Source: a virus | DNA: 46,665 bases | Reading direction: 5' to 3' (one strand) | Virus record (IMG/VR): IMGVR_UViG_3300042894_004093 | Span: 1-46,665 of that record | In this document: positions 2,436 to 39,196 of the stretch, piece after piece | Layout: every line of letters starts with the position of its first letter | How positions within the stretch are numbered: the stretch's first letter is position 1 | Position numbers and translations under genes: made by a program | Notes under the pieces: model-generated | What the model saw: only the letters and a program-made list of their open reading frames with translations | Databases searched by the model: none | What the model was told of the DNA's origin: nothing

Positions 2436-4211
2436 ATGAGTTTGACAAAAGAACAGTTGATGCTTGAATATGTTAAATGTATGAGGGACACACCATATGC
2501 TCTTCGCACATACCTACAAACATATGATAATACAGTATCAAAATATGTTCCATTAGAGTTATTTCCAGATCAAGTTTCACTACTTAAAGATTATGAGGAT
2601 TACGAAGAAAATATTGCATTAAAATATAGACAGGCTGGTGTATCAACTGTAACGGCAGCTTGGGTTTCAAAAAGATTAGTTTTCGCAAAAAAAGAACGTC
2701 CCGAAAAAATTCTAATTATTGCTAACAAACTTGATACATCAATGGAGATGGCAAACAAGATTAGAGCATTTGTTGAGCAATGGCCTAAATGGGTTGGTGC
2801 GGGGTTTTCTGCCGATAAAAACTCACAAAAACATTATAAATTAACAAATGGTTCAGAAGTGAAAGCGGTAGCAACATCAAAAGATGCATTACGTGGATTT
2901 ACCCCCACAATACTTGTGTTTGATGAGGCGGCATTTATTGAAGCGGACAGTGACTTTTGGGCTGCTTGTATGGCATCACTATCTACGGGTGGTAAAGTAA
3001 TCGTTGTATCAACACCAAACGGGTATGATCCAATTTATTACGAGATATATAACCAAGCAACAAAGGGAATGAATAATTTTAGAATTTCTGAAATGTTTTG
3101 GTATAGAGATCCAAGATACGCAAAAGATTTATATTTAGTTCCAACGGACGATTTGATTGATTATTTGTTAAATAAAGACGAAAAGGATACATCAAAAAAT
3201 ATTTCGTTCGCACATATTGATCCATTCCAAAGAGATTATAAAGAATTAAGTGATTTATTTTCAAAAGGTTATAAACCTTGTTCTACTTGGTATGAGAAAA
3301 TGGTTAAAAAACTCAAGTATGATAAAAGAAAAATAAATCAGGAGTTAAATTGTGAATTTTTAGGTTCGGGAGATAACGTATTTGATGGTAAACAACTTGA
3401 TTATATTAAACAAAATACGTTAGAGGATGCACCAAATAAAATGATGGGTAATTCATTGTGGTTATGGAAAGAACCGATTGAGGGACACAAATATATTATG
3501 GGTGTTGACGTATCTCGTGGGGACAGTGAAGATTTCTCAACAATACAAATAGTTGATTTTGATGAAAGAGAACAAGTTTTTGAGTATGTTGGTAAGATAC
3601 CACCAGACTCATTAGCAGAAATTGCGTATAAATGGGGATTGATGTATAACGCATTTTGTGTTGTGGATATTACTGGTGGTATGGGTATTACTACAGTTAG
3701 AAAAATGCAAGAATTGGGTTATAAGAATTTATACATTGATGGTGTGGACTCAACAAATATTTGGAGTTATAACCCAAAGGCTCAAGATAAGATACCAGGA
3801 ATAAACTTTAATAATAAAAGAGTTCAGATAATTGCCGCCTTTGAGGAATATGTAAGACACAAGTTCAAAATCAAAAGCGTTCGTTTGTATAATGAAATGA
3901 ATACTTTCATATATGTTAATGGTAGACCAGACCACCAAAAAGGACAACACGATGATTTAATTATGTCAATAGCAATGGCAATTTATGTCGGGGAATCGTC
4001 GTTTCAAAAACTTGAAAGAGTTGTTGAGAAAACAAAGGTTATGATTGAGTCGTGGACAGTAAGTAACAATGATTCTGTTGGTAAACAAGTTCATTTTGAT
4101 CCTGTATTACCTAATACACATATGCTTTCTGAAAGACAGAAAATGAATTCAGGTCCATCAAAAGATGATTACATAAAATACGGATGGTTATTCGGAGGAA
4201 TGAAACGATAA
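2436..4211 (+). CDS. terL: Terminase large subunit (T4 gp17-like)
   Basis: ATP-driven DNA packaging motor and headful nuclease acting at the portal. The 591-residue length matches the family (T4 gp17 is about 610). The ATPase domain shows a deviant Walker A, YRQAGVST (64-71), as in gp17-type terminases, a Walker B with catalytic Glu in VFDEAAF (DE at 163-164), and a coupling motif STPNG (192-196). The RNase H-like nuclease domain shows acidic residues D358 (GVDVSRGDSEDFS), D411 (VVDITGG) and D506/D507 (HDDLIMS). The ATG lies 13 nt after a TATTTATA motif. A small gene and then the portal gene follow in the same direction, as in T4-like head clusters. Confidence 0.97.
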   Translation: MSLTKEQLMLEYVKCMRDTPYALRTYLQTYDNTVSKYVPLELFPDQVSLLKDYEDYEENIALKYRQAGVSTVTAAWVSKRLVFAKKERPEKILIIANKLDTSMEMANKIRAFVEQWPKWVGAGFSADKNSQKHYKLTNGSEVKAVATSKDALRGFTPTILVFDEAAFIEADSDFWAACMASLSTGGKVIVVSTPNGYDPIYYEIYNQATKGMNNFRISEMFWYRDPRYAKDLYLVPTDDLIDYLLNKDEKDTSKNISFAHIDPFQRDYKELSDLFSKGYKPCSTWYEKMVKKLKYDKRKINQELNCEFLGSGDNVFDGKQLDYIKQNTLEDAPNKMMGNSLWLWKEPIEGHKYIMGVDVSRGDSEDFSTIQIVDFDEREQVFEYVGKIPPDSLAEIAYKWGLMYNAFCVVDITGGMGITTVRKMQELGYKNLYIDGVDSTNIWSYNPKAQDKIPGINFNNKRVQIIAAFEEYVRHKFKIKSVRLYNEMNTFIYVNGRPDHQKGQHDDLIMSIAMAIYVGESSFQKLERVVEKTKVMIESWTVSNNDSVGKQVHFDPVLPNTHMLSERQKMNSGPSKDDYIKYGWLFGGMKR

Positions 4212-4603: not shown

Positions 4604-6394
4604 ATGGAACAAAATACAAATCAATTAACCGTATGGCAAAGGTTATCAAAAGCCTTTGGGCCAAATTCATTATTGGGACAAGATGTTCCTACATATAAAT
4701 TTGATAAAAAAGAACTATTACGTACAAGAGATAGAAATGAATTTGAGAAGGAAAAACTACAGGCTCAACAATCTTTATTCTTGGCAAATCAATGGACAAA
4801 GATAGAAAACAATTTATATACTCAAGCAATATATTATGAACCAACTAGGTTAGCTGCATTTTATGATTATGAATCAATGGAGTTCACACCTGAAATCTCA
4901 ACAGCACTTGACATTTATGCAGAAGAATCTACAACACCTAACGAAGATGGACACATTCTTCAGATATATTCAGAATCAAAAAGAATAAAAGGTATATTAG
5001 CCGATTTATTTAATAATACTTTAGATATAAATACAAACTTACAAATGTGGATTAGAAACACTTGTAAGTACGGTGATAATTTTGTGTACTTGAAATTAGA
5101 TCCTGAAAAAGGAATTATTGGTGCAGTACAATTACCTAACATAGAAATTGAAAGGTTAGAACGAGGTATGACACCAAAGAGTCCAAATACCCAAGTGAAA
5201 ACGGATGAAAAAGGTTTAAGGTTTAACTGGAAAGAAAAGAATATGGAGTTTAACACTTTCGAGGTAGCACATTTTAGATTATTGGGTGACGATAGAAAAC
5301 TTCCATATGGAACTTCAATGCTAGAAAAGGCAAGGAGGATTTGGAAACAACTTGTATTAGCTGAAGATGCAATGTTAATATATAGAACATCAAGAGCACC
5401 AGAAAGAAGAGTATTCAAAATATTTGTTGGTAATATGGACGACAAAGATGTTGAACCATACGTACAAAGAGTTGCAAATAAATTTAAGAGAGATCAAATA
5501 GTTGATAACAAAACAGGAAATGTTGATTTACGTTTTAATCAAATGGCAGTTGATCAAGATTATTTTATTCCTGTTAGAGATGCAACACAAACAATGCCTA
5601 TTGAAACATTACAAGGAGCTCAGAACCTATCTGAAATTGCGGATATTGAGTATATTCAAAAGAAACTAGTTACAGCACTTCGTATCCCAAAAGCGTACCT
5701 TGGTTTTGAGGAACCAGTAGGTGATGGTAAAAACCTTTCACTATTGGATATTCGTTTTGCAAGAACAATTAATAGAATCCAAAAAAATATGCTTGGTGAA
5801 CTTAACAAAATAGCAATCATTCATTTGTTCTTGTTGGGTTTTGAAGATGAGTTACAAAATTTTACTTTAGGGCTTAACAACCCATCAAAACAAGCAGATT
5901 TGTTAATGGTTGATGTGTGGAAAGAAAAAGTACTACTTTACAAAGATTTGGTTAGTGAAATACCAAACACATTAGCACCAACATCGGCAACTTGGGCTAA
6001 AAAACACATTTTTGGGTTCTCTGATGAAGACATTAAAATTGACACACAAAGACAAAGAATGGAAAGAGCTGTTGCCGCAGAACTTGCAAATACTGCAACA
6101 ATTATTACACATACAGGTATGTTTGATACTATTGATAGATTATACAAAACTGTAAGTGGTTCGACTGAAGCACCACCACCTGAAGGAGGAGGTGAGGCAG
6201 GATTAGATATGGGTGGAGGAATGCCACCTGCGGCACCACCAGCAGGACCGCCACCACCAGAACCAGGTGGTTTACCTGAAAGTAAAAAGAAACTTGAGAA
6301 TTTACTTTTAGAAGGTGACGATATTGATTTTATGTATAAAAACTCATCTTTAGGTGATATTGAAAATGAATTACTAAAAATACTGAAGGATTAA
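4604..6394 (+). CDS. Portal protein (T4 gp20-like)
   Basis: Dodecameric head-tail connector through which DNA is packaged. The 596-residue protein carries gp20-family stretches: MWIRNTCKYGDNFVYLKL (148-165), an IVDNKTGNVDLRF strand (299-311) and the hallmark ETLQGAQNLSEIADIEY followed by a helix with LRIPKAYLGFEE (334-370). Residues ~520-558 are a Gly/Pro-rich insertion that T4 gp20 lacks. The C-terminus, KKLENLLLEGDD, contains an L-L-E|G site that fits gp21-type cleavage. Gene order terminase-portal-protease-scaffold-capsid supports the call. Confidence 0.95.
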   Translation: MEQNTNQLTVWQRLSKAFGPNSLLGQDVPTYKFDKKELLRTRDRNEFEKEKLQAQQSLFLANQWTKIENNLYTQAIYYEPTRLAAFYDYESMEFTPEISTALDIYAEESTTPNEDGHILQIYSESKRIKGILADLFNNTLDINTNLQMWIRNTCKYGDNFVYLKLDPEKGIIGAVQLPNIEIERLERGMTPKSPNTQVKTDEKGLRFNWKEKNMEFNTFEVAHFRLLGDDRKLPYGTSMLEKARRIWKQLVLAEDAMLIYRTSRAPERRVFKIFVGNMDDKDVEPYVQRVANKFKRDQIVDNKTGNVDLRFNQMAVDQDYFIPVRDATQTMPIETLQGAQNLSEIADIEYIQKKLVTALRIPKAYLGFEEPVGDGKNLSLLDIRFARTINRIQKNMLGELNKIAIIHLFLLGFEDELQNFTLGLNNPSKQADLLMVDVWKEKVLLYKDLVSEIPNTLAPTSATWAKKHIFGFSDEDIKIDTQRQRMERAVAAELANTATIITHTGMFDTIDRLYKTVSGSTEAPPPEGGGEAGLDMGGGMPPAAPPAGPPPPEPGGLPESKKKLENLLLEGDDIDFMYKNSSLGDIENELLKILKD

Positions 6395-6416: not shown

Positions 6417-7136
6417 ATGAAATTTGGATTAATAAAAAGTAAAATAGAAAAATGTCTAACGGAGTCGTATGGACATGACACATTCAAACCAAATATGTTT
6501 GTTTTTAAGGAGTTAGTATTAGAAAACAAAAATTTGAGTAAACTATTTTATTTATACGATGAACTTACAACAAAAAAATCGTTGAGTGAATCTATGGCAA
6601 CAGAATTAATTAATGAGTCAATTGTTTTATATGAGAATACAATCAACAAAATAACAAAAAAACAATTCAATGACTTGAATTTATGGTTATCAGACATCAA
6701 AGTAAAAAATAATTATGAAAATTTAGATAATTTATTTTCATCAAATGTACTAACATTAGAAAATAAAATTAAAAGTAAAAAAATTATTTTAGAGAACCTC
6801 AAGGAAACCTCATCTGAAATTACAGAAATTTCAGAAAAAATACCTTTAAGTAAATTAGTAAGTGCCGCTAACAAAACAGTTAACGATTATTTAGATACTA
6901 TAAACGAAAGTGATAAGAAAAAACTAAAAAGTATTTTATCCGAGGACGAGAAAAAACTGAAATTAAAATTTGAAGTGATAAAAGAAAATGTTATTGAGAA
7001 ATTAGAGGAGATTAAAGAAAGTGAAAATGATAACGAAACATTAACACGAATTAACGAGACATTGAACAAGGTTAGTAGTGAAGAATTTTCACGTATAAAC
7101 TACTTCAAACTTTATGAATTAAACAAGAATATTTAA
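6417..7136 (+). CDS. Coiled-coil head protein, gp67/gp68 position
   Basis: A 239-residue, Lys/Glu/Asn-rich, strongly helical protein with no recognised domain; residues ~100-215 look like coiled coil. It lies between portal and prohead protease, where T4 has the small prohead core genes 67 and 68, so a core role is suggested by position only. The N-terminus MKFGLIKSKIEKCLTESYG resembles a capsid-targeting helix with an L-T-E|S site. Its stop codon overlaps the stop of the convergent bS21 gene within TTTAA. Confidence 0.7.
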   Translation: MKFGLIKSKIEKCLTESYGHDTFKPNMFVFKELVLENKNLSKLFYLYDELTTKKSLSESMATELINESIVLYENTINKITKKQFNDLNLWLSDIKVKNNYENLDNLFSSNVLTLENKIKSKKIILENLKETSSEITEISEKIPLSKLVSAANKTVNDYLDTINESDKKKLKSILSEDEKKLKLKFEVIKENVIEKLEEIKESENDNETLTRINETLNKVSSEEFSRINYFKLYELNKNI

Positions 7137-7318
7137 TTCCCCGAATTTAATTTCTGACGATATGCGGCTTTCTTAAGAATCTGTCTTTTTTGGACAGATT
7201 TTTTTGTATACTCTTTTCGTTCATTTAATTTGGAATTTTGACGTGTTTTTATAACCTTACTTTTGAGTTCTTTCAGGGCACGTTCAATATCGTTTTTTTT
7301 GACTGTTACAATAAGCAT
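7133..7318 (-). CDS. rpsU: Ribosomal protein bS21 homologue
   Basis: A 61-residue basic protein colinear with bacterial bS21. It has the N-terminal strand MLIVTVKKNDIERALKELK, the central Lys/Arg helix, a SVQKRQILKKAAYRQKL segment equivalent to the S21 SVxRRxxxxKAxYxQKL block, and the usual length. In cells bS21 sits on the 30S platform near the 3' end of 16S rRNA and affects initiation; phage copies are known in some large and marine phages. It is the only minus-strand gene inside the head block, convergent with the gene at 6417. No TATTTATA precedes it; a TAAATTTG box (minus strand, 7359-7366) could be a host-type -7 element, but the -33 match is poor. Confidence 0.92.
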   Translation of the reverse strand: MLIVTVKKNDIERALKELKSKVIKTRQNSKLNERKEYTKKSVQKRQILKKAAYRQKLNSGN

Positions 7319-7410
7319 AAATTATTTAGTTAGTTTTTTGTTATATTGATATATATCCCAAATTTACATAAACTTCAATAAAATAAACATGATAGATATG
7401 AAAAATTATT

Positions 7411-7878
7411 ATGAAAAAAGGAAAAACCTCCAAAATCAACGGTTTTAGGACATCAAAAGTATTGTATGGCACAGTTGACTCAAAAGAATTCAAATCACTT
7501 TACTTAAACATTCAAACATGGGTAGAACCAAAATTAGAAGTAGAAAATTGGACAAGATTAGTTCTTAATATGAATAGAGCAGTTAAACACTCCGTTTATG
7601 AAAATTTAGATAAAACATTATTTGACGATAAATTTATTGTTGATTTAGATTTAAGAACAAGTGGCTTACAACTAAAAAAGAAATCTTTTATGAATTTAGA
7701 AATAAATCTATTTTTAAATGAAACAGTAGACTTCAAATCCACAAAACTAAAAAAATCACTTAAAAATTTAACCAAAGAAATATACTCTGATGTTTTCACA
7801 GGAAATGAGTATTTCAAGTTTTATTTGACAAAAAATGGAAATTCAAAACCACAGAAGGTAAAAATAGAAAAAGTTTAA
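7411..7878 (+). CDS. Hypothetical protein before prohead protease
   Basis: A 155-residue basic protein of unknown family that appears to be mixed alpha/beta, with alternating hydrophobic strands such as KFIVDLDLRTSGLQLKK and FMNLEINLFLNE. It occupies a T4 gp68-like position just upstream of the protease gene. The ATG at 7411 is the first in frame; nearby upstream ATGs (7389, 7398) are out of frame. No late-type motif precedes it, so it may be read from the promoter at 6397 through the bS21 antisense region. Confidence 0.65.
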   Translation: MKKGKTSKINGFRTSKVLYGTVDSKEFKSLYLNIQTWVEPKLEVENWTRLVLNMNRAVKHSVYENLDKTLFDDKFIVDLDLRTSGLQLKKKSFMNLEINLFLNETVDFKSTKLKKSLKNLTKEIYSDVFTGNEYFKFYLTKNGNSKPQKVKIEKV

Positions 7879-7901: not shown

Positions 7902-8618
7902 ATGAAGATATTAGGACCAAACGATACAGGTAGGGGGATTCTTATTGAATATGACGCAGGTTATATTAATCCGAAAACTCACGGAAACCATTTTATTATG
8001 GAACAGAAGAGCTTTTTGGATTATTCAAAACCATTTGAATTCTACGCAGTTCTACAAAAATATAATACACCAAATAGAAACGGAAGGGTATATCCTGAAA
8101 AGGTATTAAAAAGGGAAGCTGAAAATTATAAGAAAATGATTGACAAAGGAACTTCCCTTTCCGAACTTAATCACCCTGAATCATCTCTTATTGATTTAGA
8201 TAGAGTATCACACATTATAACAGAGGTGTGGTGGGATGGACCTGTTCTTTTAGGTAAATTAAGATTACTTACAAGTCCTGGTTTCCATGAAAGAGGAATA
8301 TGTTCCACAAAAGGCGATTTAGCGGCAAACTATTTAAGACAAGGTGTAACACTTGGTATTTCTTCTCGTGGTGTTGGTTCTCTAAAAAAAGTTGGTGAAC
8401 AGAACGAAGTTCAAGATGACTTTGAATTAATCTGTTTTGACTTGGTATCTTCACCATCAACTCCTGGTGCTTATCTTTTCCGTGATGAAAATGAGAGAAT
8501 GAAGTTTGATGAAAATTTAGAAGAAGATAAAAAAATGGCAGTTGAGAGAAATATTGGTGATAGTGGAAACAAATCACTTGACTTAATGAAACGTTTATCC
8601 GATTATTTGGGTAAATAA
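7902..8618 (+). CDS. Prohead maturation protease (T4 gp21-like)
   Basis: Serine protease with the herpesvirus-assemblin-like fold that cleaves scaffold and capsid proteins during head maturation. The 238-residue protein shows the family signature: N-terminal NRNGRVYPEKVL (58-69), catalytic His in ELNHPES (H91) and catalytic Ser in LGISSRGVGS (S154/S155). The block ICFDLVSSPSTPGAYL (177-192) follows with a candidate third residue D180. It sits in the expected place between portal and scaffold. Its predicted targets include the capsid protein after E60 and the scaffold. Confidence 0.95.
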   Translation: MKILGPNDTGRGILIEYDAGYINPKTHGNHFIMEQKSFLDYSKPFEFYAVLQKYNTPNRNGRVYPEKVLKREAENYKKMIDKGTSLSELNHPESSLIDLDRVSHIITEVWWDGPVLLGKLRLLTSPGFHERGICSTKGDLAANYLRQGVTLGISSRGVGSLKKVGEQNEVQDDFELICFDLVSSPSTPGAYLFRDENERMKFDENLEEDKKMAVERNIGDSGNKSLDLMKRLSDYLGK

Positions 8619-10666: not shown

Positions 10667-12526
10667 ATGGGAGCATTATTAGAATCAGGTCTTGTAGGTA
10701 ACATTGGGCTTAAGCACCTAAAAGTTATCAAAGAAGACACAATTAACAAATGGGACAGATTAGGGTTCCTTGATGGACTTAAAGGACATCTAAAAGAAAA
10801 CGTAGCACAGTTGTATGAAAACCAAGCTTCTTTCTTGATTAACGAAGCAACTTCTGAAGGTTCAAACGGAGCTTTTGAAACTGTTGTTTTCCCTATCGTA
10901 AGAAGAGTTTTCTCTAAATTGTTAGCTAACGATATCGTATCAGTACAAGCAATGAACTTACCTATCGGTAAATTGTTCTACTTTGTACCTCGTATCCAAG
11001 GTTATCAAGATGGATACGGAACAACTTCAGCAGAACACTATCCACCAATTGGATCACCTGAAGCCGCTACAGCAACACCACCACAAAATAATCCAGGACA
11101 GGGTTATGGTGATCCATCAGCAACTAACTTTCCTTTTGCTAAAAACCTTTATGACTTGTTCTACGAAGGTGCTGAAGCTGGACTTGATCCTCCAGGATTG
11201 TTTGATTATTCTAAAGGACGTTGGTCCGCAATTACATCTGCTGTTGGTGTTGTTAAGTGGTCTAATGGTTATTTAGTTGATGCTGATGCTACAAACGATC
11301 CTGCTTACATCGGTGTAACAAGAAAAGTTCTTTTACGTCTTTGTGGTTGGAGTAACGTTCCTGGTGCAGGTAAATTAATCGGTCCTGACGGAAACGAGAT
11401 TGATAGCGAGTCTTTCTTATCTGATTTGAAAATCCTACGTACTACTAACTTGGGGTTTGGTTCAAATAACGTTTGTCCTATTCCTACGGTAACTACTCCA
11501 TTGTTGTTTAGAGTTGTAACTCAAAAATACGGAAAAGGAATCGTTCAATATGGTAATTCTTACAAAACAACATTCCCTGATAATGGAAATGGTGGTTCAT
11601 TTAATAATATTTGTGACGCTGATGGATGTATTTTCCTTGAAGTAGATTTATCTTGCCCTGCTTGTGCTACTTGTGGAAATGATACACTTGATGGTTACAC
11701 AGGTTCATCTATTTCTGCTATCACTTCAGGAACTTCATTTACTGCTGTTTGGAGAAGATATGAAGAACTTGAGTTTGAAGAAAAAATCGGTGAGGTTTCT
11801 TTTGATTTAGAGTCTGTAACAGTTTCTGTATCTGAAAGAAAACTTAGAGCACAATGGTCTCCTGAATTAGCACAAGATGTTGCGGCATTCCACAACATTG
11901 ATGCTGAGGCTGAATTGACAGCCCTATTGTCAGAGCAAGTTGCCGCTGAAATCGACCGTGAAATTCTTCGTGACTTGAGAAAAGGAGCGGCTTGGAACCT
12001 ACGTTGGGATTACAACGGATGGAGAAGAATTGCACAAACTACATCTTACACTCAAAAAGATTGGAACCAAACTTTAATTACTGCAATCAACCAATTGTCT
12101 GCACAAATCCACAAATCTACTTTGAGAGGTGGTGCAAACTGGATCGTTGTATCTTCTGAAGTTTCAGCAATCTTTGATGATTTAGAATACTTCCACGTAT
12201 CTAACGCATCTCCTGAGCAAGATCAGTATAACATGGGTATTGAAAGAGTTGGTACTCTTGCAGGACGTTACCAAGTGTATCGTGATCCTTACTTCCCACC
12301 AAACCAAGTATTGTTGGGTCATAAAGGTACTTCACTTCTTGACACAGGTTACATCTACGCACCGTATGTACCTCTACAATTAACACCTACAATGTACAAT
12401 CCGTTCAACTTTACACCTATCAAAGGTATAATGACACGTTACGCGAAAAAAATGGTAAATAATAGATTTTACGCGCGTATTACTGTTGATGGTGTTCGTA
12501 CATTTGATTTGAGAGAATTGAGATAA
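10667..12526 (+). CDS. Major capsid protein (T4 gp23-like)
   Basis: HK97-fold shell protein, 619 residues (T4 gp23 is 521). FLINE|ATSEGSNGAFETV (57-70) aligns with the T4 maturation site FLAE|AEIGG, predicting cleavage after E60. VRRVFSKLLANDIVSVQAMN (78-97) and IDAEAELTALLSEQVAAEID (411-430) are gp23-family blocks, and the C-terminal LLDTGYIYAPYVPL and KGIMTRYAKK also match. The extra length lies largely in ~140-350, which includes a Cys cluster (C316, C321, C330, C333, C336) not found in T4. A strong terminator follows, consistent with very high expression. Confidence 0.97.
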   Translation: MGALLESGLVGNIGLKHLKVIKEDTINKWDRLGFLDGLKGHLKENVAQLYENQASFLINEATSEGSNGAFETVVFPIVRRVFSKLLANDIVSVQAMNLPIGKLFYFVPRIQGYQDGYGTTSAEHYPPIGSPEAATATPPQNNPGQGYGDPSATNFPFAKNLYDLFYEGAEAGLDPPGLFDYSKGRWSAITSAVGVVKWSNGYLVDADATNDPAYIGVTRKVLLRLCGWSNVPGAGKLIGPDGNEIDSESFLSDLKILRTTNLGFGSNNVCPIPTVTTPLLFRVVTQKYGKGIVQYGNSYKTTFPDNGNGGSFNNICDADGCIFLEVDLSCPACATCGNDTLDGYTGSSISAITSGTSFTAVWRRYEELEFEEKIGEVSFDLESVTVSVSERKLRAQWSPELAQDVAAFHNIDAEAELTALLSEQVAAEIDREILRDLRKGAAWNLRWDYNGWRRIAQTTSYTQKDWNQTLITAINQLSAQIHKSTLRGGANWIVVSSEVSAIFDDLEYFHVSNASPEQDQYNMGIERVGTLAGRYQVYRDPYFPPNQVLLGHKGTSLLDTGYIYAPYVPLQLTPTMYNPFNFTPIKGIMTRYAKKMVNNRFYARITVDGVRTFDLRELR

Positions 12527-12696: not shown

Positions 12697-13782
12697 ATGA
12701 AAAATCTAATTTTAACCCTACTTTTTTTATTTCCATTTATTACAAAATCTCAAACTGTTGTTGAGTTTGATAATATGGAGACATCGTCAACATTGTATTC
12801 GTCCGCAGGATGGTGGACACCAGCAGTAACTGCGGGTTGGTTTAATAACACATTTGTTAGTTCTAATTTAAGTGCCGCAATTTATGGTTCAGGTTCAGGA
12901 ACATCTGGTAATGAACAGGATTGGTATTCATTACCAAACAAAACAGGTTTGGACATAAACAAACAATATCAATTAAAGTTTCGTTTGTCATCCCGTACAT
13001 TTTCAAATTCTACAGCAGCAACAAGAGGAGTTGATGTTGGAGATTTTGTTGATGTTCAGGTTTCTAGAAATGGGGGCACATTTATATCTGAACTAAGAAT
13101 AACAGGAAATAGTAATGCACAATGGACATATGCATCTACAGGTGTTGTAAATCATACTGCAAACGGAACTTTTACAAATTCTGCAGCACCCACAGGAGAT
13201 GTGTATCAAGCACCTGCAGGTACGACAACAACCGCACCTTCTACAGTTTATTTAACGTTTCCTTATGGAACATCACAATTGGCAATTGATTTATTTTGTA
13301 GAGTAAATTCGGCAGGTGAAGAATGGTGGATTGACAATATTGAATTGTTGGATATTACACCCATATCACTTCCTGTAGAGTTAATTTCTTTTGATGGGTT
13401 ATCAACAGACGAAGGTAATTTATTAATATGGAAAACAGCTTCCGAACATAATTCTGACTACTTTGTTATTGAATCGTCTATTGATGGGGAAAAATACAAT
13501 CCTGTTGATGTTGTAAAAGCGGCAGGTAATAGTGTAGAAATTTTGGAGTATAATTTATTAGATATAAAATACACATCAAATATCACATATTACAGATTAG
13601 TTCAATACGATTTTGATGGGGAAAACAAAACATACGGGCCAATTTCTGTAGATAATAGAGTTCAAAAGAAAAAAGTTGTAAAAATTGTAACAATGACAGG
13701 ACAAGAAGTTACTGAATTTGTATCAGGTGGAATTTATTTAGAGGTTTATGAAGATGGTAGCGTAAATAGGATATATAAATAA
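12697..13782 (+). CDS. Secreted protein with T9SS-cargo-like architecture
   Basis: A 361-residue protein with a clear signal peptide (MKNLILTLLFLFPFITKSQ). A ~200-residue Ser/Thr/Gly/aromatic-rich beta region follows. Then comes the linker block characteristic of Bacteroidota secreted proteins: LPVELISFDGL (~226-236), LLIWKTASEHNSDYFVIESS and YYRLVQYDFDGE. The tail, KIVTMTGQEV...GGIYLEVYEDGSVNRIYK, matches the last strands of a type A type IX secretion sorting domain, but the usual N-terminal NPNP-type strand is missing. It probably came from a host gene. It overlaps the next gene by one base (TAATG). Export to the cell surface is inferred. Confidence 0.85.
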   Translation: MKNLILTLLFLFPFITKSQTVVEFDNMETSSTLYSSAGWWTPAVTAGWFNNTFVSSNLSAAIYGSGSGTSGNEQDWYSLPNKTGLDINKQYQLKFRLSSRTFSNSTAATRGVDVGDFVDVQVSRNGGTFISELRITGNSNAQWTYASTGVVNHTANGTFTNSAAPTGDVYQAPAGTTTTAPSTVYLTFPYGTSQLAIDLFCRVNSAGEEWWIDNIELLDITPISLPVELISFDGLSTDEGNLLIWKTASEHNSDYFVIESSIDGEKYNPVDVVKAAGNSVEILEYNLLDIKYTSNITYYRLVQYDFDGENKTYGPISVDNRVQKKKVVKIVTMTGQEVTEFVSGGIYLEVYEDGSVNRIYK

Positions 13783-25049: not shown

Positions 25050-25799
25050 TTAATCTTTCAAAATATCTTGAAGTAGTTCCGAATAAAGTTTTTTATAACG
25101 TTTCATAGAGTTTCTGATTTCTTTAGTTGAGAGATTTGTCATTTCACGTAATTCAAATAATATTACGTTTTTATTAAACTTATTGTTATTTGTTTCAGGA
25201 AACATCATTTGATAATTTTCAAACAAGTCAAACAATGATTGTCCTAATTTTAATTCTTGTTCGGTGATTTTTTTATCGCCCATAGAATCTTTTAATTTGT
25301 CTAAAAATTTTTTCATAATTTCTTCAGACGTTATTTCTTCATTATCAATATAATAAACCATTTCAGGATTGTTTTGTAAGTCTGATGAAATGTCCTCATA
25401 AGATATTTTTCTATTCATATCTTTTTGGTCTTTCATAATTTGACCCATTAAATAATTTTTACAAATAGTCCCAAAATATGAATACGCCTTTTTTTCTTTT
25501 GATGGTTTAAATTTATCAATTTTTGTCATCAAAAAAGAATGTGTATCAATATGAATTTCTTCGTAATTCATATCTTTTCTGTATAATTTGTAACGTCTTA
25601 TTATTGACGAAATCATTTTATCTAAAGGGTGTTTAAGAAATTCATTGTAAATTCTATTTTTCTCCTCAAAAGAGTCTGCGGTTAAGTAGTCCCTAACCGC
25701 GTTTTCCTCTCTTTCGGCAAAATAATTTTTTACCTTTGGTTTTCTCCCTTTCTTTTTCTTATCATTTAAATTCTCAATTTTTGTTTCATTAATAGACAT
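25050..25799 (-). CDS. Sigma factor, gp55-like late sigma candidate
   Basis: 249 residues. After a basic N-terminus (KKKKGRKPKVK), residues ~45-125 follow sigma-70 region 2: NEFLKHPLDKMISSIIRRY, then a helix with YEEIHIDTHSFLMTKIDKF and AYSYFGTICKNYLMGQIMKD at the position of regions 2.3/2.4. Residues ~210-240 (FELREMTNLSTKEIRNSMKR) look like a helix-turn-helix, which T4 gp55 lacks. It would direct host RNA polymerase to the TATTTATA sites found before the structural genes. It sits at the junction between tail genes and the enzyme array. An extracytoplasmic-type or middle-gene sigma is the alternative. Confidence 0.8.
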   Translation of the reverse strand: MSINETKIENLNDKKKKGRKPKVKNYFAEREENAVRDYLTADSFEEKNRIYNEFLKHPLDKMISSIIRRYKLYRKDMNYEEIHIDTHSFLMTKIDKFKPSKEKKAYSYFGTICKNYLMGQIMKDQKDMNRKISYEDISSDLQNNPEMVYYIDNEEITSEEIMKKFLDKLKDSMGDKKITEQELKLGQSLFDLFENYQMMFPETNNNKFNKNVILFELREMTNLSTKEIRNSMKRYKKLYSELLQDILKD

Positions 25800-26599
25800 T
25801 AAACTTCCTGCGGTTCATATTTTATACCCCTGTCCTTAATAAAGAGATATTCTTTTTTTGCGTTATCAATCCAAAACCTAACTTCGTCCTCATTTAAACT
25901 ATTTTCACCATTTTTATAGTTCCAAAAAATTGAACCAACCCTTAAGTTCATATGTTTGTAACCAATTTTTGGTATTGTCATAAATTTAACACTATTATTA
26001 GTCATCCTTAATAGGAATTCATAACCGAATGTTAGTTTGAAGGACTCTTTCAACATCCCAAAATCAACAAACGATTTTTTTCTAATTACTAATCCTGAAA
26101 TTTGGAAGTTTTGATATGTCATTAATGTTTCGTTATCCAAGTGTCCCATTTCTGTTGAAAAGTTGGCGGCAAAAGTTGCTTCATTTGTAAAACCAACAAA
26201 CATACCTTTATCATCAACATCAACAACTATTGGCATAAAAGCATCAACATCCTTGTATATGTTCATATATTTATTAACGTTTTTAAACCAAATGTTTGAA
26301 TACTCATCATCAAACTCTAATATTGATACCCAATTTGAGGATGCGTTTTCTACACCATAATTAACTTGGGCAGCAAAACTAGGTTCGCCATCATACTCAA
26401 CAACTTTAAGGTTTATATTATCAAAATTGTATTCTGAAATAATTTCTTTAAATCTATCTTCACCTACGTGAACGATAACCAATTCATTAACGAATTCACC
26501 TTGATTTTTAATTGATGTAATTGCTTTATCAAAATAATCATCAAAATCAATTGCTTTACCTGATTTTATTGGTAGTATTACCGATATCGTATTTTCCAT
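25799..26599 (-). CDS. Glycosyltransferase family 2-like
   Basis: 266 residues with a GT-A fold start (ISVILPIKSGKAIDFDDYFD), a donor-binding strand and the block NYGVENASSNWVSILEFDDE (80-99) where FDDE takes the place of the DxD metal site. The C-terminal half carries GYEFLLRM, typical of GT2 acceptor regions. It overlaps the sigma-factor start by one base and begins the glycan island when read from this side. Substrate not predictable. Confidence 0.8.
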   Translation of the reverse strand: MENTISVILPIKSGKAIDFDDYFDKAITSIKNQGEFVNELVIVHVGEDRFKEIISEYNFDNINLKVVEYDGEPSFAAQVNYGVENASSNWVSILEFDDEYSNIWFKNVNKYMNIYKDVDAFMPIVVDVDDKGMFVGFTNEATFAANFSTEMGHLDNETLMTYQNFQISGLVIRKKSFVDFGMLKESFKLTFGYEFLLRMTNNSVKFMTIPKIGYKHMNLRVGSIFWNYKNGENSLNEDEVRFWIDNAKKEYLFIKDRGIKYEPQEV

Positions 26600-26600
26600 A

Positions 26601-27662
26601 TTAATCTATTGTTTCAAATTTAGTTAATTGCTCTTCAAAAGCCGTCATTCTTGTGTTCATCATTTCAGAAAAAGTATACAAAACGTCATTCTTAAATTTT
26701 TCCATATCAGAGTATTTTGTTGCGGTTTTTTCCATACTATCAAACAATTCAGGATTTAGATTATCCTCTAACCAATTTTGTACAAAATCTGCAACAACCT
26801 CAACCAAAAGGTTTTTATTTGACAACCAAATTCCATTATCTTCATTAAGCCACTCTGGTTGTAGGTATGGTAACAACCCAATCACGGGTATTCCCATTTT
26901 CATAGATTCTAATGGGAATGTCCCAAATCCACTAGTTTGATCAACCCATACGGAAAGGAAACTATCTTTCATTGCATTTGCAAAATCTTTTTCACTTAGA
27001 CCTCTTAAATCTCTAAAAGTAATCCATCTGTATTGTGGAAATCTCACATAAAATTGTTTAATCAAGTTTGCAGTATCTCTAGAATCTCTTGTGTGAATCG
27101 AGATAATTGTTTTAGGTGGAAATTCTGACTTCTCAAAAACTTCTGAAATAACAGGGTTAATAATATCAAAAGAAACTTTACGCATAAGTTTTTCTATTTG
27201 TTGTTTTTGTGATTCACAAGTTGTAATACATTTAAAGAAACCTAATTGTGTCCATGATTGTCCAGGTTGTAACGTTTCAAAAATATGATCGTAAGCTTGT
27301 GTCAAAACAATTTTACCACAAGGTAAATCTTTTACTTGTTCCATAATGTAACCAAAAATTTCAGGTATAATCAATAAATCGTCAGGTGAAATTTCCAAGT
27401 TACCTTCGTCGATTGATTTGTGTGGTAATTCATTCATATATTCCTCACCTAACCAACTTGCAACGCCAAAGTAATCTTTATTCTCGTGAAGAATAATTGG
27501 GTTATAATCATCTTTTTTAAGAATCATTGCCATTTGGTAGACATATCTTAAAGATGCTTTTGCGTTACCTTTTGTGTCCTGTACAATAAAATAAATACGA
27601 GATTTTTTTTCTCTCATATTTTGAATTGATTTTTCTAATTTTACTATTTTTTCGTTATCCAT
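26601..27662 (-). CDS. Glycosyltransferase, GT-B/GT4-like
   Basis: 353 residues. The C-terminal half shows the GT4-type nucleotide-sugar binding block FGTFPLESMKMGIPVIG followed by a helix, preceded by ISIHTRDSRDTANLIKQF. The N-terminal half has a Rossmann-like start (RIYFIVQDTKGNAKASL). The acceptor is unknown. It is packed head-to-tail with the GT2 gene (1-nt gap). Confidence 0.75.
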   Translation of the reverse strand: MDNEKIVKLEKSIQNMREKKSRIYFIVQDTKGNAKASLRYVYQMAMILKKDDYNPIILHENKDYFGVASWLGEEYMNELPHKSIDEGNLEISPDDLLIIPEIFGYIMEQVKDLPCGKIVLTQAYDHIFETLQPGQSWTQLGFFKCITTCESQKQQIEKLMRKVSFDIINPVISEVFEKSEFPPKTIISIHTRDSRDTANLIKQFYVRFPQYRWITFRDLRGLSEKDFANAMKDSFLSVWVDQTSGFGTFPLESMKMGIPVIGLLPYLQPEWLNEDNGIWLSNKNLLVEVVADFVQNWLEDNLNPELFDSMEKTATKYSDMEKFKNDVLYTFSEMMNTRMTAFEEQLTKFETID

Positions 27663-27667
27663 ATATA

Positions 27668-27958
27668 TTAGATTTTATTTATTATTTTTTTCATTAAAAG
27701 TGAATTAAAAGCGATTTTGAATGGTATTGAAATCTCATTACTTTTCATTCCTAAATTTTCATCTACTTCCTCATTTTCTGTAAGAATAGTATCAATAAAA
27801 CTTTTTACTAACTCGTATTTTACAAGATGAATGTGTTTATCTTCTCTTAATTCATCTTCATCATCTTTAGTTTTCTCAACAACTTCTGACGTAAACTGTA
27901 CGTACTCATCAACAGCATCCATATCAATGTAGTAATTCTCACCAAGTATTTTAAACAT
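27668..27958 (-). CDS. Small acidic hypothetical protein
   Basis: 96 residues, acidic and helical, without recognised motifs. It overlaps the next upstream gene by 8 nt. Its place inside a dense operon supports a real gene. Confidence 0.6.
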   Translation of the reverse strand: MFKILGENYYIDMDAVDEYVQFTSEVVEKTKDDEDELREDKHIHLVKYELVKSFIDTILTENEEVDENLGMKSNEISIPFKIAFNSLLMKKIINKI

Positions 27959-28631
27959 AACTTTCTTTTATTTTATTCAATAATAAGTTAAATTCAGATA
28001 AAGTGGATATTTCATAATCCGACTTTACGTTTTCGTTGTATTTGGTTTTGAATTTAACAACTATCTTATTATCTGGTTTATTTGTTATTAAAATGGGATT
28101 TGCCGTTAATAATATGTCCACATTATCCCACATATCGTTTTTTGTTATTTCACTGTAAAAAAATACTTGTTCTAATAGACAACCAAATTTTGCTAAAAAG
28201 AAAAGTGATGCGGGTTTTGATTTACCAATTTCATCAGAGACAATTAGTAATTTATAATTATCCCTCAATTCTATATATAAATCGTTTAGAATATTAAATG
28301 TGTTAATTTCAGTGGATGGTGAGTGTCCAAAAAGCTCCATTGTATAATCTTCATACATAAAAGTATACAACTCGTCCTTTGAAGGGAAAGCAAAGTGTTT
28401 ATCCAATTCTAATGAATTTACTTCACTCAATATTTTATATTCAAACCATTTAACATCAACATTTTCATTAAGTTCAACAATTTCTTCTGTATCTCCTGAA
28501 AAAGTTATTTCATATGTTTTATCAATAGAATCAAATTCCATTTTACCAATCATATGGTGCTCATACAGTTGTTTAAATTTTTCTATTGTGTCCCTTAAAA
28601 CACCATTAATCTCAATTCCTATTCTCATCAT
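27951..28631 (-). CDS. HAD-like protein with degenerate catalytic motif
   Basis: 226 residues. The start, MMRIGIEINGVLRDT, reads like HAD motif I (hhhDxDGVLRD), but both aspartates are replaced (E and N). Later, YKLLIVSDEIGKSKPASLFF resembles motif II with a following conserved Lys, and VDILLTANP resembles the motif III region. Without the nucleophilic Asp, phosphatase activity is unlikely; a binding or regulatory role is inferred. Its start overlaps the 3' end of phoH by 20 nt. The second Met (28628) is an equally good start. Confidence 0.6.
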   Translation of the reverse strand: MMRIGIEINGVLRDTIEKFKQLYEHHMIGKMEFDSIDKTYEITFSGDTEEIVELNENVDVKWFEYKILSEVNSLELDKHFAFPSKDELYTFMYEDYTMELFGHSPSTEINTFNILNDLYIELRDNYKLLIVSDEIGKSKPASLFFLAKFGCLLEQVFFYSEITKNDMWDNVDILLTANPILITNKPDNKIVVKFKTKYNENVKSDYEISTLSEFNLLLNKIKESYV

Positions 28632-29346
28632 ATTTTTCCAATATTTTACCGATTAATGGATTACGAACATTTTTAGCGTTTCTGAAATCATAAATACCAA
28701 TATCGTTAACCCCTTGAAACCTTTGTAGTGCGTCATACAGTCCTGATTGTTTTTTGTCTTTATATCTATCAGTTTGTTCTAAATCTCCTGATATAAAAAA
28801 CTTACTATTAAACCCAATTCTTGTAAGTAGGAGTTTCATTTGATTTGGTGTTGAGTTTTGCGCTTCTTCAAAAATTAAAATAGAATTATCAATATTCATA
28901 CCTCTCATATATGCTAATGCAAAAACTTCTATAACTTCCGCATCTTTTAATTTTTCACGAGCGTCTTTACCAATAATTTTATTTAACAAATAATAAGACG
29001 GAAAAATGTATGGATCTAATTTCTCCTCCAAGTTTCCTGGTAATGAACCTAATTTTTCTTCAGCCTCAACCGCAGGTCTAACAATAATAATTTTTTCATA
29101 AGAGTTGTTTACGTCCATTAATAAATCAACTGCAGCCTTCATAGCAATAAAGGATTTACCAACACCAGCTGGACCTGAACAGACTGTTATTTGATTCTCT
29201 TTTAAGATATTATAATACTCTTCTTGATTGGGTGATAAAAATTTATTTTTTTGTTTTTTCTTAATTACAGAGTTAATGTAATCTTTTTTTGAAAATGGTT
29301 TTGTTTCACTTTCATCATTTTGAGGTACCGGTTTTTTTCTCGTCAT
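28612..29346 (-). CDS. phoH: PhoH-like ATPase
   Basis: About 244 residues from ATG 29346; a longer in-frame start (29403) would run into the gmd coding region and is rejected. Shows a Walker A GPAGVGKS (58-65), IIIVRPAVEAEEKLGSLPG and a Walker B-like SILIFEEAQN, the standard PhoH signature, plus the sensor block FFISGDLEQTD. PhoH ATPases are common in large phages; the proposed RNA-related role is not settled. It begins 1 nt after the gmd stop. Confidence 0.92.
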   Translation of the reverse strand: MTRKKPVPQNDESETKPFSKKDYINSVIKKKQKNKFLSPNQEEYYNILKENQITVCSGPAGVGKSFIAMKAAVDLLMDVNNSYEKIIIVRPAVEAEEKLGSLPGNLEEKLDPYIFPSYYLLNKIIGKDAREKLKDAEVIEVFALAYMRGMNIDNSILIFEEAQNSTPNQMKLLLTRIGFNSKFFISGDLEQTDRYKDKKQSGLYDALQRFQGVNDIGIYDFRNAKNVRNPLIGKILEKYDENRN

Positions 29347-29347
29347 C

Positions 29348-30355
29348 TTATATCGGTGATAGAATTTTATTTGTGTTATTATAATAATGTAACCAACCCT
29401 CAATCATATCGTCCATCAAGGTTTCAAATGTGTATTGTGGTTCCCAACCTAATGTGCTCCTTATTTTTGTGGAGTCACCCTTTAAATATTTCAATTCTTC
29501 GGCTCTTAAAAATTTTTTATCTTGTGTAACATATTTAGTATAATCTAAATCTAATTTGTTAAATACGTACTCAACCATTTCCCTAACTGAATGTGTTGTC
29601 ATTGTTGATACAACAAAATCATCGGCTTTATCGTGGTTTAATATTTTATGCATGGCTCTAACATAGTCTTTGGAATGTCCCCAATCCCTATAAGAATCCA
29701 TATTTCCTAAAACTAATTTGTCTGTTATGCCCAACTTTATTTCTACCGCAGTTTTAACAACTTTGTTAGTGACAAAATTAGAACCTCTTCTTGGTGATTC
29801 GTGATTAAATAGTATTCCGTTACAAGCGTGTAAGTTATATGCATTTCTATAGTTCCTTACAATATTATAAGCAAAAACTTTTGAACAACCGTAAGGACTA
29901 ACTGGTGTCATTGGTGTTGTTTCTCTTTGGAACCCGTCTTCGTCAACTGAATTACCAAACATTTCGGAAGAAGATGCTTGATAAAACTTGGCGTTTGGAC
30001 AAGATCTTCTATACGCCTCAAGTATATTTATGACACCAATTGCATTTGTTTGCACCGTAAATTGTGGTATATCAAAACTGATTCTTACATGACTTTGTGC
30101 TGCCAAATTATAAATTTCATCTGGTTGTATTTCATCTAATAATCTTTCTAAAGAACCTTGATCTAACAAATCACCATAATGTATATTTACTTTATTTCTT
30201 AATTCGTCATTGAACCTACTTTGTTGTGACTCAACAGAAGAGTTTCTTCTTATTATACCATACACCTCATATCCTAACTCAAGTAGATATTCTGCTAAAT
30301 ACGAACCGTCTTGTCCATTAATCCCAGTTATAAATGCTTTTTTTTGTTTACTCAT
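29348..30355 (-). CDS. gmd: GDP-mannose 4,6-dehydratase
   Basis: 335 residues, full length for the family. It converts GDP-D-mannose to GDP-4-keto-6-deoxy-D-mannose, the precursor of GDP-fucose, GDP-rhamnose and GDP-perosamine. The NADP-binding GINGQDGS lies at 11-18, the catalytic SSSEMFG at 128-134 and YGCSK (Y155, K159) of the short-chain dehydrogenase triad. The family block NHESPRRGSNFVTNKV (184-199) is intact. It anchors the glycan island. Confidence 0.96.
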   Translation of the reverse strand: MSKQKKAFITGINGQDGSYLAEYLLELGYEVYGIIRRNSSVESQQSRFNDELRNKVNIHYGDLLDQGSLERLLDEIQPDEIYNLAAQSHVRISFDIPQFTVQTNAIGVINILEAYRRSCPNAKFYQASSSEMFGNSVDEDGFQRETTPMTPVSPYGCSKVFAYNIVRNYRNAYNLHACNGILFNHESPRRGSNFVTNKVVKTAVEIKLGITDKLVLGNMDSYRDWGHSKDYVRAMHKILNHDKADDFVVSTMTTHSVREMVEYVFNKLDLDYTKYVTQDKKFLRAEELKYLKGDSTKIRSTLGWEPQYTFETLMDDMIEGWLHYYNNTNKILSPI

Positions 30356-30380
30356 ATTTTTTATTATTTTTTATTTTTTT

Positions 30381-31100
30381 TTATTTTGTTTGTAAATAGG
30401 GATCTATTTGATTTATTAAACAATATTCGTAAAACTCATCCTCGCCAAATTTTTTTCTTTTAATAATGTTTGGGTTGTCTGTTTGTTCGTATACATATTC
30501 TATTTTTTTCCCTTTTTGGAAAACCTCCATCTCTGTTAAATCAGGCCAATCTGTGTAAAGCCATTTCCTTGGTTTTGTTTCTATTGCTAAAGGTAATTTT
30601 TCTATACCCATTTTAGCTGTTTCAGGTGTCATATAATAATGATAACCTATACAATCAATATTTTGTTCTCGCCATGGTATATTTGGTAATCTTCCATCAT
30701 AAGACATTTTTTTTAACAAAATTGCTTCTTCTTCATTATCTAATAATATGATTCCACCTCTACCTAAACTCAAATGTTTTTGATACTGAAAAGAAATACA
30801 CATCATTGTACTTGGAATATAGCTGTTTTCCGCCCATAATACTGCGGCATCTATAACCCTATCGGTGAGATAATAGTAGTTTTCCCAAACATCATCCACC
30901 CACTCCAAAGGAATATTTAATTTGTTTGAAAGGAATGGGATTGATAAATAGGTACGTTTAGGAACTTTTATTTTTTTAGCTTTTGTTAATCTTAAACATA
31001 ACTCTACACCATGAGTACAAGAATCAACACTAACGGCATATTTTGCACCAAAAAATTTGGCAACGGAATTTTCAAATTCGGTTATAATACTAAAAGACAT
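30381..31100 (-). CDS. Short DegT/DnrJ-type aminotransferase
   Basis: 239 residues, compared with about 370 for typical sugar aminotransferases of this family. The PLP-binding core is present: an N-terminal FFGAKYAVSVDSCTHGVEL, the PLP-pairing Asp in VIDAAVLWAE (D84) and the Schiff-base Lys in SFQYQKHLSLGRGG (K108). The usual C-terminal small domain is replaced by a ~70-residue tail without similarity. Next to gmd it may act on GDP-4-keto-6-deoxymannose (perosamine-type chemistry), but the missing domain makes activity uncertain. Confidence 0.75.
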   Translation of the reverse strand: MSFSIITEFENSVAKFFGAKYAVSVDSCTHGVELCLRLTKAKKIKVPKRTYLSIPFLSNKLNIPLEWVDDVWENYYYLTDRVIDAAVLWAENSYIPSTMMCISFQYQKHLSLGRGGIILLDNEEEAILLKKMSYDGRLPNIPWREQNIDCIGYHYYMTPETAKMGIEKLPLAIETKPRKWLYTDWPDLTEMEVFQKGKKIEYVYEQTDNPNIIKRKKFGEDEFYEYCLINQIDPYLQTK

Positions 31101-31122
31101 TGTGTAAAATTTTTTATTTTAA

Positions 31123-31926
31123 CTACAAAAAGTTTTCAAAAAGGTAATCTTCGGCTAACGGAAAGTCAATTGATATTTGGTAATTATCTTTGATTGCATC
31201 CATTTTACTGTAATATAAATCAAAAGTCAAATCTTCTATCTTAAAATTTTCATCTAATATTATTATACCATCAAGATTAAAAAAATCCCCAATATTAGGT
31301 ATACCATAATATATTGGGATAGTTCCTGTAATAAAACAATCTGTTATTTTTTCTGTAATCATGTTTGGGTACGTGGCATTTTCCATCGCAATAGAAAAAC
31401 AATAGTCTTTTAATGCGTCAATTTTATTTTCTACCTGATTAAAACCTCTACCATAATGATCTAATTTATTTTTGTACTTTTGTATGATTTCTTGTCTGTA
31501 TAAATGTTCACTACACATTTGTTTTGACGATGCTACCATAGAAATTAATTTTGTTTTTGGGTATATACCACCATCAGTGATGTACGGTTTAATGTCACAT
31601 TGTGTAAGTTGAAAAATATCTGATTTTTTAGTTAGCTCTACATCGTGTGTAAAAACTTTTTTAAATTTACTTTTTAGAATGTCAACGTTTTTTTCTGCCC
31701 AATCATATGTACTTGATATGATACTTTTTGATTCTCTTAACCACCCATAATTTGTGGTATTTTCTGAAACTGTACGTCTTAATCCGTCATCAACATAAAA
31801 AGATATGTCAGAATGAATTTTGTTTGGTATCCACTCAACAAATTGAGTTCTCTTGTTAATGTCCTCAACAAAGTTTATAAAACCACCACCAAATAGATTA
31901 ATTTTATTTTTTGTCATTTTCTTCAA
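31123..31926 (-). CDS. GT10 fucosyltransferase-like enzyme
   Basis: 267 residues. The C-terminal half carries the alpha-1,3-fucosyltransferase (GT10) signature FSIAMENATYPNMITEKITD (177-196) followed by CFITGTIPIYYGIPNI (197-212), which binds GDP-sugar. The N-terminal half is variable, as in the family. It would transfer fucose, or a related 6-deoxy sugar made from GDP-mannose, to a glycan. Its start overlaps the acetyltransferase gene by 23 nt; the fourth codon is an alternative Met. Confidence 0.88.
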   Translation of the reverse strand: MKKMTKNKINLFGGGFINFVEDINKRTQFVEWIPNKIHSDISFYVDDGLRRTVSENTTNYGWLRESKSIISSTYDWAEKNVDILKSKFKKVFTHDVELTKKSDIFQLTQCDIKPYITDGGIYPKTKLISMVASSKQMCSEHLYRQEIIQKYKNKLDHYGRGFNQVENKIDALKDYCFSIAMENATYPNMITEKITDCFITGTIPIYYGIPNIGDFFNLDGIIILDENFKIEDLTFDLYYSKMDAIKDNYQISIDFPLAEDYLFENFL

Positions 31927-32440
31927 GTAATAGTTTATAATTTTTCAATATCTTATCAGGGTTTATTTTTTTTGTAAGTTTTGCTGGATTTCCTTTGTAA
32001 ATACCCCATTCTTCCGTGTCACCCATCAAAAGACTACCTGCGGTTAATAAAACTCCTTTTCTCAAAATAGAACCTGGTAACACAATTGCGTTTGTACCAA
32101 TGTTGGAAAATTCCTCCATAACTATAGGTTCTATTATTTGTTTACCTTTGTATTTTTTTGGTATCATAGCACCAAATAAACCACTTTCGTCAAACCTATC
32201 ACTACCACATATTATTCTTGCACCTGCCATTATATTATTAAAACCTTTAGCCTCAAAGTATGACAAACTACCACCAATTATTGTAACATAAGGACTTATG
32301 TGAACATAATCCCCAATACTAATTTCTGTGGTACAATACACTCCTTTATCAATTGATACATGGTTACCAATGTGTTTTGGTTTGTTTTTGAAAAAAACAT
32401 CTTTATTAATAACCAAATCTTTTTTTTTGTTGGACTTCAT
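31904..32440 (-). CDS. Hexapeptide-repeat acetyltransferase
   Basis: 178 residues forming a left-handed beta-helix. Hexapeptide-like strands such as VSIDKGVYCTTEISIGDYVH and NIGTNAIVLPGSILRKGVLL lead to the C-terminal NPAKLTKKI, typical of sugar O- or N-acetyltransferases of the Maa/NodL/PglD group. Adjacent to an aminotransferase and gmd, N-acetylation of an amino sugar is one possibility; O-acetylation of a glycan is the other. Confidence 0.85.
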   Translation of the reverse strand: MKSNKKKDLVINKDVFFKNKPKHIGNHVSIDKGVYCTTEISIGDYVHISPYVTIIGGSLSYFEAKGFNNIMAGARIICGSDRFDESGLFGAMIPKKYKGKQIIEPIVMEEFSNIGTNAIVLPGSILRKGVLLTAGSLLMGDTEEWGIYKGNPAKLTKKINPDKILKNYKLLLEENDKK

Positions 32441-32447
32441 AAAAAGA

Positions 32448-33128: not shown

Positions 33129-33130
33129 TT

Positions 33131-34433: not shown

Positions 34434-34435
34434 AA

Positions 34436-34852
34436 TTAATTTTTTATAAAGACTTTATCTAAAGTTTGTCCTTCATATGGGCCGGTTTTATACTCATACA
34501 CGATAGTGTCATCCTCAAGTATTTCATACGTATGTCCACCATATAAAGTAAAACTTGCATCACCAGGGTATAATATTGGTTGGGCAATAATAGTATCATC
34601 TAAATCATAAAAAATACATCTTACACTACCTTTTATAACAACCCACGATTCTTGAGCAATTTGTTCTGTGTAATGTCTATCTTTAACAATATGTTTATGA
34701 GGAGGAAAAGTTTTATTTTTTTCCATTTTTAACGTCGCACATTGTATGAAATTTTCATCAGGGATAACGTCAACCCTGCCTTTAATTTCATCTAGTCTAT
34801 TAATAATATGTAATAGTTTTGTCGGTTCTATTTTTGAGTATATTTTTTCCAT
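34436..34852 (-). CDS. Cupin-fold protein
   Basis: 138 residues. A cupin barrel is indicated by the metal-type motif PPHKH (50-54), the strand ESWVVIKGSVRCIFYD and the second motif region YPGDASFTLYGGHTYEIL. Cupins in glycan loci are often sugar epimerases or isomerases of the RmlC/FdtA type or sensors. No specific reaction can be assigned. Confidence 0.75.
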   Translation of the reverse strand: MEKIYSKIEPTKLLHIINRLDEIKGRVDVIPDENFIQCATLKMEKNKTFPPHKHIVKDRHYTEQIAQESWVVIKGSVRCIFYDLDDTIIAQPILYPGDASFTLYGGHTYEILEDDTIVYEYKTGPYEGQTLDKVFIKN

Positions 34853-34864
34853 TAAAATTAATTT

Positions 34865-36411: not shown

Positions 36412-36412
36412 A

Positions 36413-39194: not shown

Positions 39195-39196
39195 TG

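Follow-up and report, generated by a model that had tools for sequence, protein, structure and literature searches.

Jumbo myophages of Bacteroidetes that encode the ribosomal protein bS21 have been described and assigned to clades a–e, and in lake metatranscriptomes their bS21 is expressed along with head and structural genes (Chen et al., 2022, ISME Commun., PMC9723584). The phage protein was proposed, by inference, to replace host bS21 and to favour phage transcripts (Chen et al., 2022). In Flavobacterium johnsoniae, the host gene rpsU is autoregulated through its Shine-Dalgarno (SD) sequence by ribosomes that lack bS21, and ribosomes without the C-terminal region of bS21 translate SD-less mRNA more poorly; phages were mentioned, speculatively, alongside this autoregulation (McNutt et al., 2023, PMC9976891). 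The bS21 of pelagiphage HTVC008M enters E. coli 70S ribosomes, and it cut their translation in vitro to about 5% (Mizuno et al., 2019, PMC6375957); a phage bS21 that is incorporated may therefore act as a poison. Genes of this kind bear on whether viruses reprogram bacterial ribosomes with ribosomal proteins that they encode themselves.

Here we describe a bS21 gene in a virus record of 46,665 bases, referred to below as the window. The open reading frame at 7133–7318 on the minus strand runs from an ATG start to a TAA stop and encodes 61 aa. It had been predicted to be a bS21, colinear with the bacterial protein, and profile searches confirm the assignment above both curated cut-offs: Pfam PF01165 (Ribosomal_S21) scores 37.4 bits where 27 are required (E=2.1e-9; positions 2–54 of the 55 in the profile are covered), and NCBIfam TIGR00030 (S21p) scores 31.2 bits where 28.95 are required. 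The top match in the PDB is F. johnsoniae bS21 (7jil_z; E=6.4e-6, or 2e-26 with the family profile). Among solved homologs, 7jil and 9i5v stand well ahead of other phyla, and the nearest genomic homologs are in Flavobacteriales. An AlphaFold model (pLDDT 85) consists of two helices, H11–34 and H40–58, joined by a short loop; a Foldseek search with this model returned no significant match, as expected for a two-helix protein. Relatives are encoded in 280 of the 312 viral stretches that matched the patterns of a first scan, and all 34 relatives scanned match PF01165. The PHROG family of phage-borne bS21 proteins, 21469, and the HTVC008M protein, which has been shown in E. coli ribosomes, are by contrast of alphaproteobacterial type, and the PHROG matches the window protein weakly (E 0.03). 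We conclude that the gene encodes genuine bS21 and belongs to a large, T4-like myovirus of Bacteroidota.

The gene lies antisense inside the head gene block, as the original prediction had it. Upstream of it on the plus strand are genes for the terminase large subunit (2436–4211; phrog_2, E 8e-41) and a T4 gp20-like portal protein (4604–6394; phrog_213, E 6e-63), and beyond it are genes for a T4 gp21-like prohead protease (7902–8618; Peptidase_S77) and the major capsid protein (10667–12526; phrog_138, E 4e-66). Between portal and protease, bS21 is convergent with a conserved 239-aa gene (6417–7136, plus strand) and divergent from a 155-aa gene (7411–7878, plus strand), hereafter its partner. 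The convergent stop codons share the bases TTAA at 7133–7136, in keeping with the overlap that had been claimed, and an identical 4-nt stop overlap recurs at 70 of 76 distinct loci where a convergent gene is present. The partner adjoins bS21 in 76 of 80 relatives. Its predicted core is ferredoxin-like (beta-alpha-beta-beta-alpha-beta), and tblastn found no match to it in the phage collection; an attempt to assign its function from the fold led no further than a myophage protein without a name and weak similarity to ferredoxin-like folds. The gene called bS21_CN in Chen et al. (2022) corresponds to either the 155-aa partner or the convergent 239-aa gene. The virus shares with the phages of that study a reverse-strand bS21 between two conserved hypothetical genes in a block of terminase, portal, prohead protease and capsid, a Bacteroidota-type bS21 with the Tyr54 aromatic, genes for PhoH and dUTPase, tail genes, sugar genes and low G+C; we found no difference in kind. 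The antisense arrangement and the idea of a ribosome swap are therefore already published (PMC9723584). We found no discussion in that paper of a promoter or SD sequence of the phage bS21 gene, an embedded terminator or loss of bS21 within the group. Within the literature searched, four features look new: the missing SD as set against the host feedback signal, an upstream element found only at bS21, the embedded terminator and a lineage that has lost the gene.

Two viral scans with bS21 gave 78 distinct versions of the upstream region plus gene, encoding 66 distinct proteins. The family is under purifying selection, with a median dN/dS of 0.21. At the position of F. johnsoniae Tyr54, which stacks on the anti-SD (ASD) tail and corresponds to Y53 in the window protein, all 66 proteins carry a residue scored as aromatic (Tyr in 62, Phe in 3, His in 1). 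Eleven positions are near-invariant with the same residue in phage and host; K16, K19, K21, K39, S41, R45 and A51 are among the residues held in common with hosts, and the C-terminal half retains K39, S41, R45, K50 and A51 together with the aromatic at 53. Thus, as far as can be judged at the sequence level, the protein matches bS21 and its contact residues are retained. The N-terminal helix differs from that of hosts by phage-specific switches at E17 (host R18), S20 (host R21) and V22 (host F/Y23), with further differences fixed in the phage clade at I23, Q27, N28 and N32. A tree that included 69 distinct Flavobacteriales proteins separates the phage proteins from those of hosts by a single branch (SH-aLRT 99); the alignment has 64 columns only, and fine branching is not resolved. 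The uncultured huge phages LR756502 and LR745206 also encode a Bacteroidota-type bS21 with the C-terminal Tyr, at 45–52% identity. In contrast to the window protein, theirs have a host-like N-terminal helix (KRYKRKF), and their genes are on the same strand as their neighbours, including a DnaJ-like gene, outside a head block and without the upstream element described below. Since the bS21 of these two phages is host-like and differently placed, the phage bS21 studied here represents a distinct clade. Two bS21 homologs per assembly were observed for Muricauda sp. CP2A (L107 and L133) and Mesonia (L149 and L162), which may be paralogs or contamination.

Genes of this virus had been described as starting without SD sequences, and this is what we find: none of the 47 called genes in the window has a strict SD core, and SD sequences precede 1 of about 270 genes (0.4%) in a 290-kb relative, G001, which was analysed as 20-kb stretches. 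An SD core is likewise absent from all 74 distinct phage bS21 starts, where the duplex with the ASD has a median free energy of +1.6 and a minimum of −5.1 kcal/mol. The homologous rpsU of Flavobacterium encodes a protein of the same size with the same ASD-pocket residues, but it differs in carrying an extended SD (GAGAGGAGGTG) and being autoregulated, whereas the phage gene is SD-less and has a phage-only upstream element. Among the 80 host rpsU genes sampled, 33 carried the extended SD (about −17 kcal/mol), and these came almost entirely from Flavobacterium; in the sampled rpsU genes from other hosts a canonical SD was often absent. Since synthesis of host bS21 rises through SD recognition by bS21-free ribosomes, a gene without an SD should be blind to this feedback, and the phage copy is probably outside the SD-based host loop. 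The argument for uncoupling hinges on the identity of the host, because rpsU genes outside Flavobacterium often lack a canonical SD.

The explanation that best accommodates these features, and that we consider fairly probable, is that phage bS21 is made from its own promoter, enters the 30S subunit and keeps ribosomes in the bS21-replete state that favours SD-less messages. During infection the protein would be produced from that promoter and would enter 30S subunits, replacing or accompanying the host protein, and the ASD tail would be kept hidden by it as by its host counterpart. With the ASD hidden, ribosomes would stay replete and favour SD-less mRNA, as phage genes require; the phage bS21 message, being SD-less, would itself be translatable by replete ribosomes and, because its gene lacks an SD, would escape host feedback. 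The phage-specific N-terminal helix may also tune the choice of mRNA. Of this picture, the identity, conservation and placement of the gene, its missing SD, the conserved upstream element and the embedded terminator are what we observed; promoter function, incorporation into ribosomes and an effect on translation are inferred. The SD-less start and the private, near-invariant upstream element make the proposed role cheaply testable.

The original prediction placed the emphasis elsewhere, on a swap into host ribosomes that biases initiation towards phage mRNAs, which is a plausible mechanism. In its selective form, which Chen et al. (2022) also proposed, the altered helix would shift mRNA choice to phage transcripts over equally SD-less host transcripts. 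The fixed phage differences at E17, S20, V22, I23, Q27, N28 and N32 lie in a helix near the mRNA path, and divergence in the same helix was reported by Chen et al. (PMC9723584); however, SD-lessness is common to phage and host mRNAs, no phage-specific signal was found at start sites, and LR756502 and LR745206 have a host-like bS21 without the helix switches. We regard such selectivity as rather unlikely, if still the strongest competitor. Lower again we would place host shut-off, in which ribosomes carrying phage bS21 are poor on host messages, or host bS21 is displaced and its feedback disturbed, chiefly to the detriment of the host. The strong reduction of E. coli translation in vitro by the pelagiphage protein (PMC6375957) is consistent with this, but that test used a mismatched host, and the bS21 studied here sits among head genes that need high translation and keeps its C-terminal ASD-pocket residues; shut-off is improbable by comparison with continued translation by replete ribosomes.

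Upstream of bS21, on its own strand, the phages share the arrangement GTTTATTTT-N13-TAnnTTTG-N3-TATATATCAA(A)TATAA. In the window, the GTTTATTTT box is at 7380–7388 (minus strand), a fixed 13 nt from the TAnnTTTG box; it reads AAAATAAAC on the plus strand and may serve both directions. The next box, TAAATTTG, at 7359–7366 (minus strand), matches the Bacteroidota housekeeping −7 box TAnnTTTG, a consensus from which its putative function is taken. An element of invariant type, TATATATCAATATAA, follows at 7341–7355 (minus strand), 37 nt 5′ of the bS21 start, and is the sole exact copy in the window. Across 74 distinct phage upstream regions, GTTTATTTT is present in 73 and TAnnTTTG in 61, while the pattern TATATATCAA.?TA occurs in 63; neither GTTTATTTT nor TATATATCAA.?TA is found in any of 80 host rpsU upstreams, on which ground we rejected a host rpsU origin for the element. 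A spacing of 24 nt between GTTTATTTT and TATATATC is kept in 61 of 68 cases. Pairwise identity reaches 99.7% (0.997) in GTTTATTTT and 90% in the TATATATC part (the TATATATCAATATAA element), whereas fourfold-degenerate sites in these genes reach 41% and the spacer and leader 55–60%. The pattern TATATATCAA.?TA has one copy in nine of ten large relatives and two in the tenth, and neither the 290 kb of G001 nor the window has the combination GTTTATTTT-N-TAnnTTTG anywhere but at bS21.

The known Bacteroidota −7 consensus, TAnnTTTG, is usually accompanied by a −33 box, TTTG. G001 carries TTTG-N18–20-TAnnTTTG upstream of eight genes (0.2 expected). At bS21, GTTTATTTT stands where the usual −33 TTTG would be, and a plain host-type promoter was rejected on this ground. 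The element presumably functions as a promoter, to judge from these motifs. In T4 middle promoters, an activator box takes the place of the −35 element; by analogy, the bS21 element might be a counterpart of these promoters, which is a guess.

A different motif, TATTTAT, probably marks the main phage promoter class, with the form TATTTAT(A). In G001 it was found ahead of 84 of the 183 starts that are intergenic, where 12 would be expected, and in the window it precedes the genes for terminase, portal, the 239-aa protein, protease, scaffold and capsid. TATTTAT(A) boxes were noted near window positions 2430, 4575, 6400, 7880, 8930, 10640, 12660 and 19480, and at further sites, upstream of head and tail genes. 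The reverse complement of the box resembles TATAAATA, the consensus of the T4 late box. A candidate T4 gp55-like late sigma factor (25050–25799, minus strand, 249 aa) was set aside as a guess, with Sigma70_r2 at E=0.18 only and no PHROG match. The box is absent upstream of both bS21 and its divergent partner in the window. We rejected, as a general rule, the view that the bS21 element is just another TATTTAT box (9 of 63 distinct upstreams pass the 5% level), because the central T of the box is near-invariant (0.98–1.00) and most bS21 elements have A there; the divergent loci L235, L241 and L246 do read TATTTAT at this site. As both genes lack the box, bS21 and its partner seem to form a separate unit of control, and with the box missing the sequence by itself does not suggest strictly late control of bS21. 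A fuller version of this idea, which we put forward tentatively and hold to be doubtful overall, is that the pair is separately timed: a composite promoter (GTTTATTTT, TAnnTTTG and TATATATCAATATAA) unlike those of the head genes or standard host promoters would supply bS21 from an SD-less message that escapes feedback, and this bS21, possibly with the partner protein, would re-dress host ribosomes ahead of head gene expression or regardless of it; the terminator of the opposing head transcript would lie in the same stretch of DNA.

That candidate terminator is a hairpin followed by a T run at 7174–7206 on the plus strand, opposite bS21 codons 39–49 (fold −15.6 kcal/mol, z −5.7). It reads AAGAATCTGTC TTTTTT GGACAGATTTTTTT, and its orientation is such that it would stop transcription arriving from the convergent head gene. 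Terminator-like structures that face the same way are found in the bS21 gene of 30 of the 78 distinct versions (1.4 expected), a frequency at which the hairpin was rejected as a universal feature; some, as in L227, L240 and L247, lie elsewhere in the gene. The L024 group shows a compensated change of a stem pair from A-T to G-C (AAAGTCTGTC/GACAGACTTT), which also changes protein residue 47. Rare codons, GTC and CAG, are used at the stem; GTC is present in 26 of 78 versions and accounts for 2% of valines in the head genes of the window. A simple terminator scan missed the hairpin, probably because the stem continues into the T run. If a coding sequence must also fold as a terminator for the opposite strand, two constraints overlap within a very short space.

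From its position, the convergent head transcript of the window should end about 40–70 nt beyond its stop codon, in the 3′ half of bS21. Antisense regulation, which had been suggested from the convergent arrangement, is narrowed accordingly on one side: if the head transcript ends at the hairpin, it would overlap only the last 70–75 nt or so of the bS21 message where the hairpin exists. No terminator for the bS21 message itself was found in the window, so transcripts from the bS21 side may read on into the head gene. The hairpin also bears on whether the locus acts chiefly in cis, as a terminator or antisense element, or encodes a protein that binds phage RNA, e.g., its own leader, rather than ribosomes. 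A hairpin within the coding sequence in 30 of 78 versions, and its retention with the promoter-like element in a lineage that has lost the reading frame, speak for such a role, but the dN/dS of 0.21 and the conservation of bS21-specific residues where the hairpin is absent point to a protein under selection, and the loss is so recent (about 5% divergence) that retention of the hairpin is weak evidence. An extra-ribosomal or cis role is accordingly quite improbable, more so than shut-off of the host.

This loss emerged from a sample anchored on the protease rather than on bS21. Among 72 relatives with enough sequence upstream, 68 have bS21 with its partner and four (L382, L383, L384 and L386) have the partner alone. 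These four have lost bS21 and kept the promoter-like element, the hairpin and a remnant, KKKSVLKRQILSKNIY*QKQ; at L382 3345–3500 a decayed bS21 was seen with hairpin and upstream element intact. They are nested beside bS21-bearing sisters at about 5% divergence, and no other bS21 turned up on their contigs, all of them fragmentary. bS21 is also absent in the cultivated Flavobacterium phage immuto. The gene is thus dispensable and was lost recently in one lineage; since one sister lineage lacks it, it is not indispensable to these phages. Absence in that lineage and in immuto would fit a neutral passenger gene captured recently, but purifying selection, the single old phage clade, the fixed position with its stop overlap and the near-invariant upstream element had already told against this, and we give it scarcely any credence. 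The naturally bS21-less sisters offer a ready control for the benefit of the gene to the phage.

Other genes in the window were noted in passing. The product of 12697–13782 (plus strand) looks secreted, with a C-terminal segment that by eye resembles Bacteroidota sorting domains (TGQEV..GIYLEVY). A long block on the minus strand (25799–40411) contains, judging from the translations, glycosyltransferase, GDP-mannose dehydratase-like, aminotransferase, methyltransferase and acetyltransferase-like genes. Finally, 43394–46264 (plus strand) encodes a protein of 956 aa with a papain-like peptidase domain at its C-terminus (phrog_16701).
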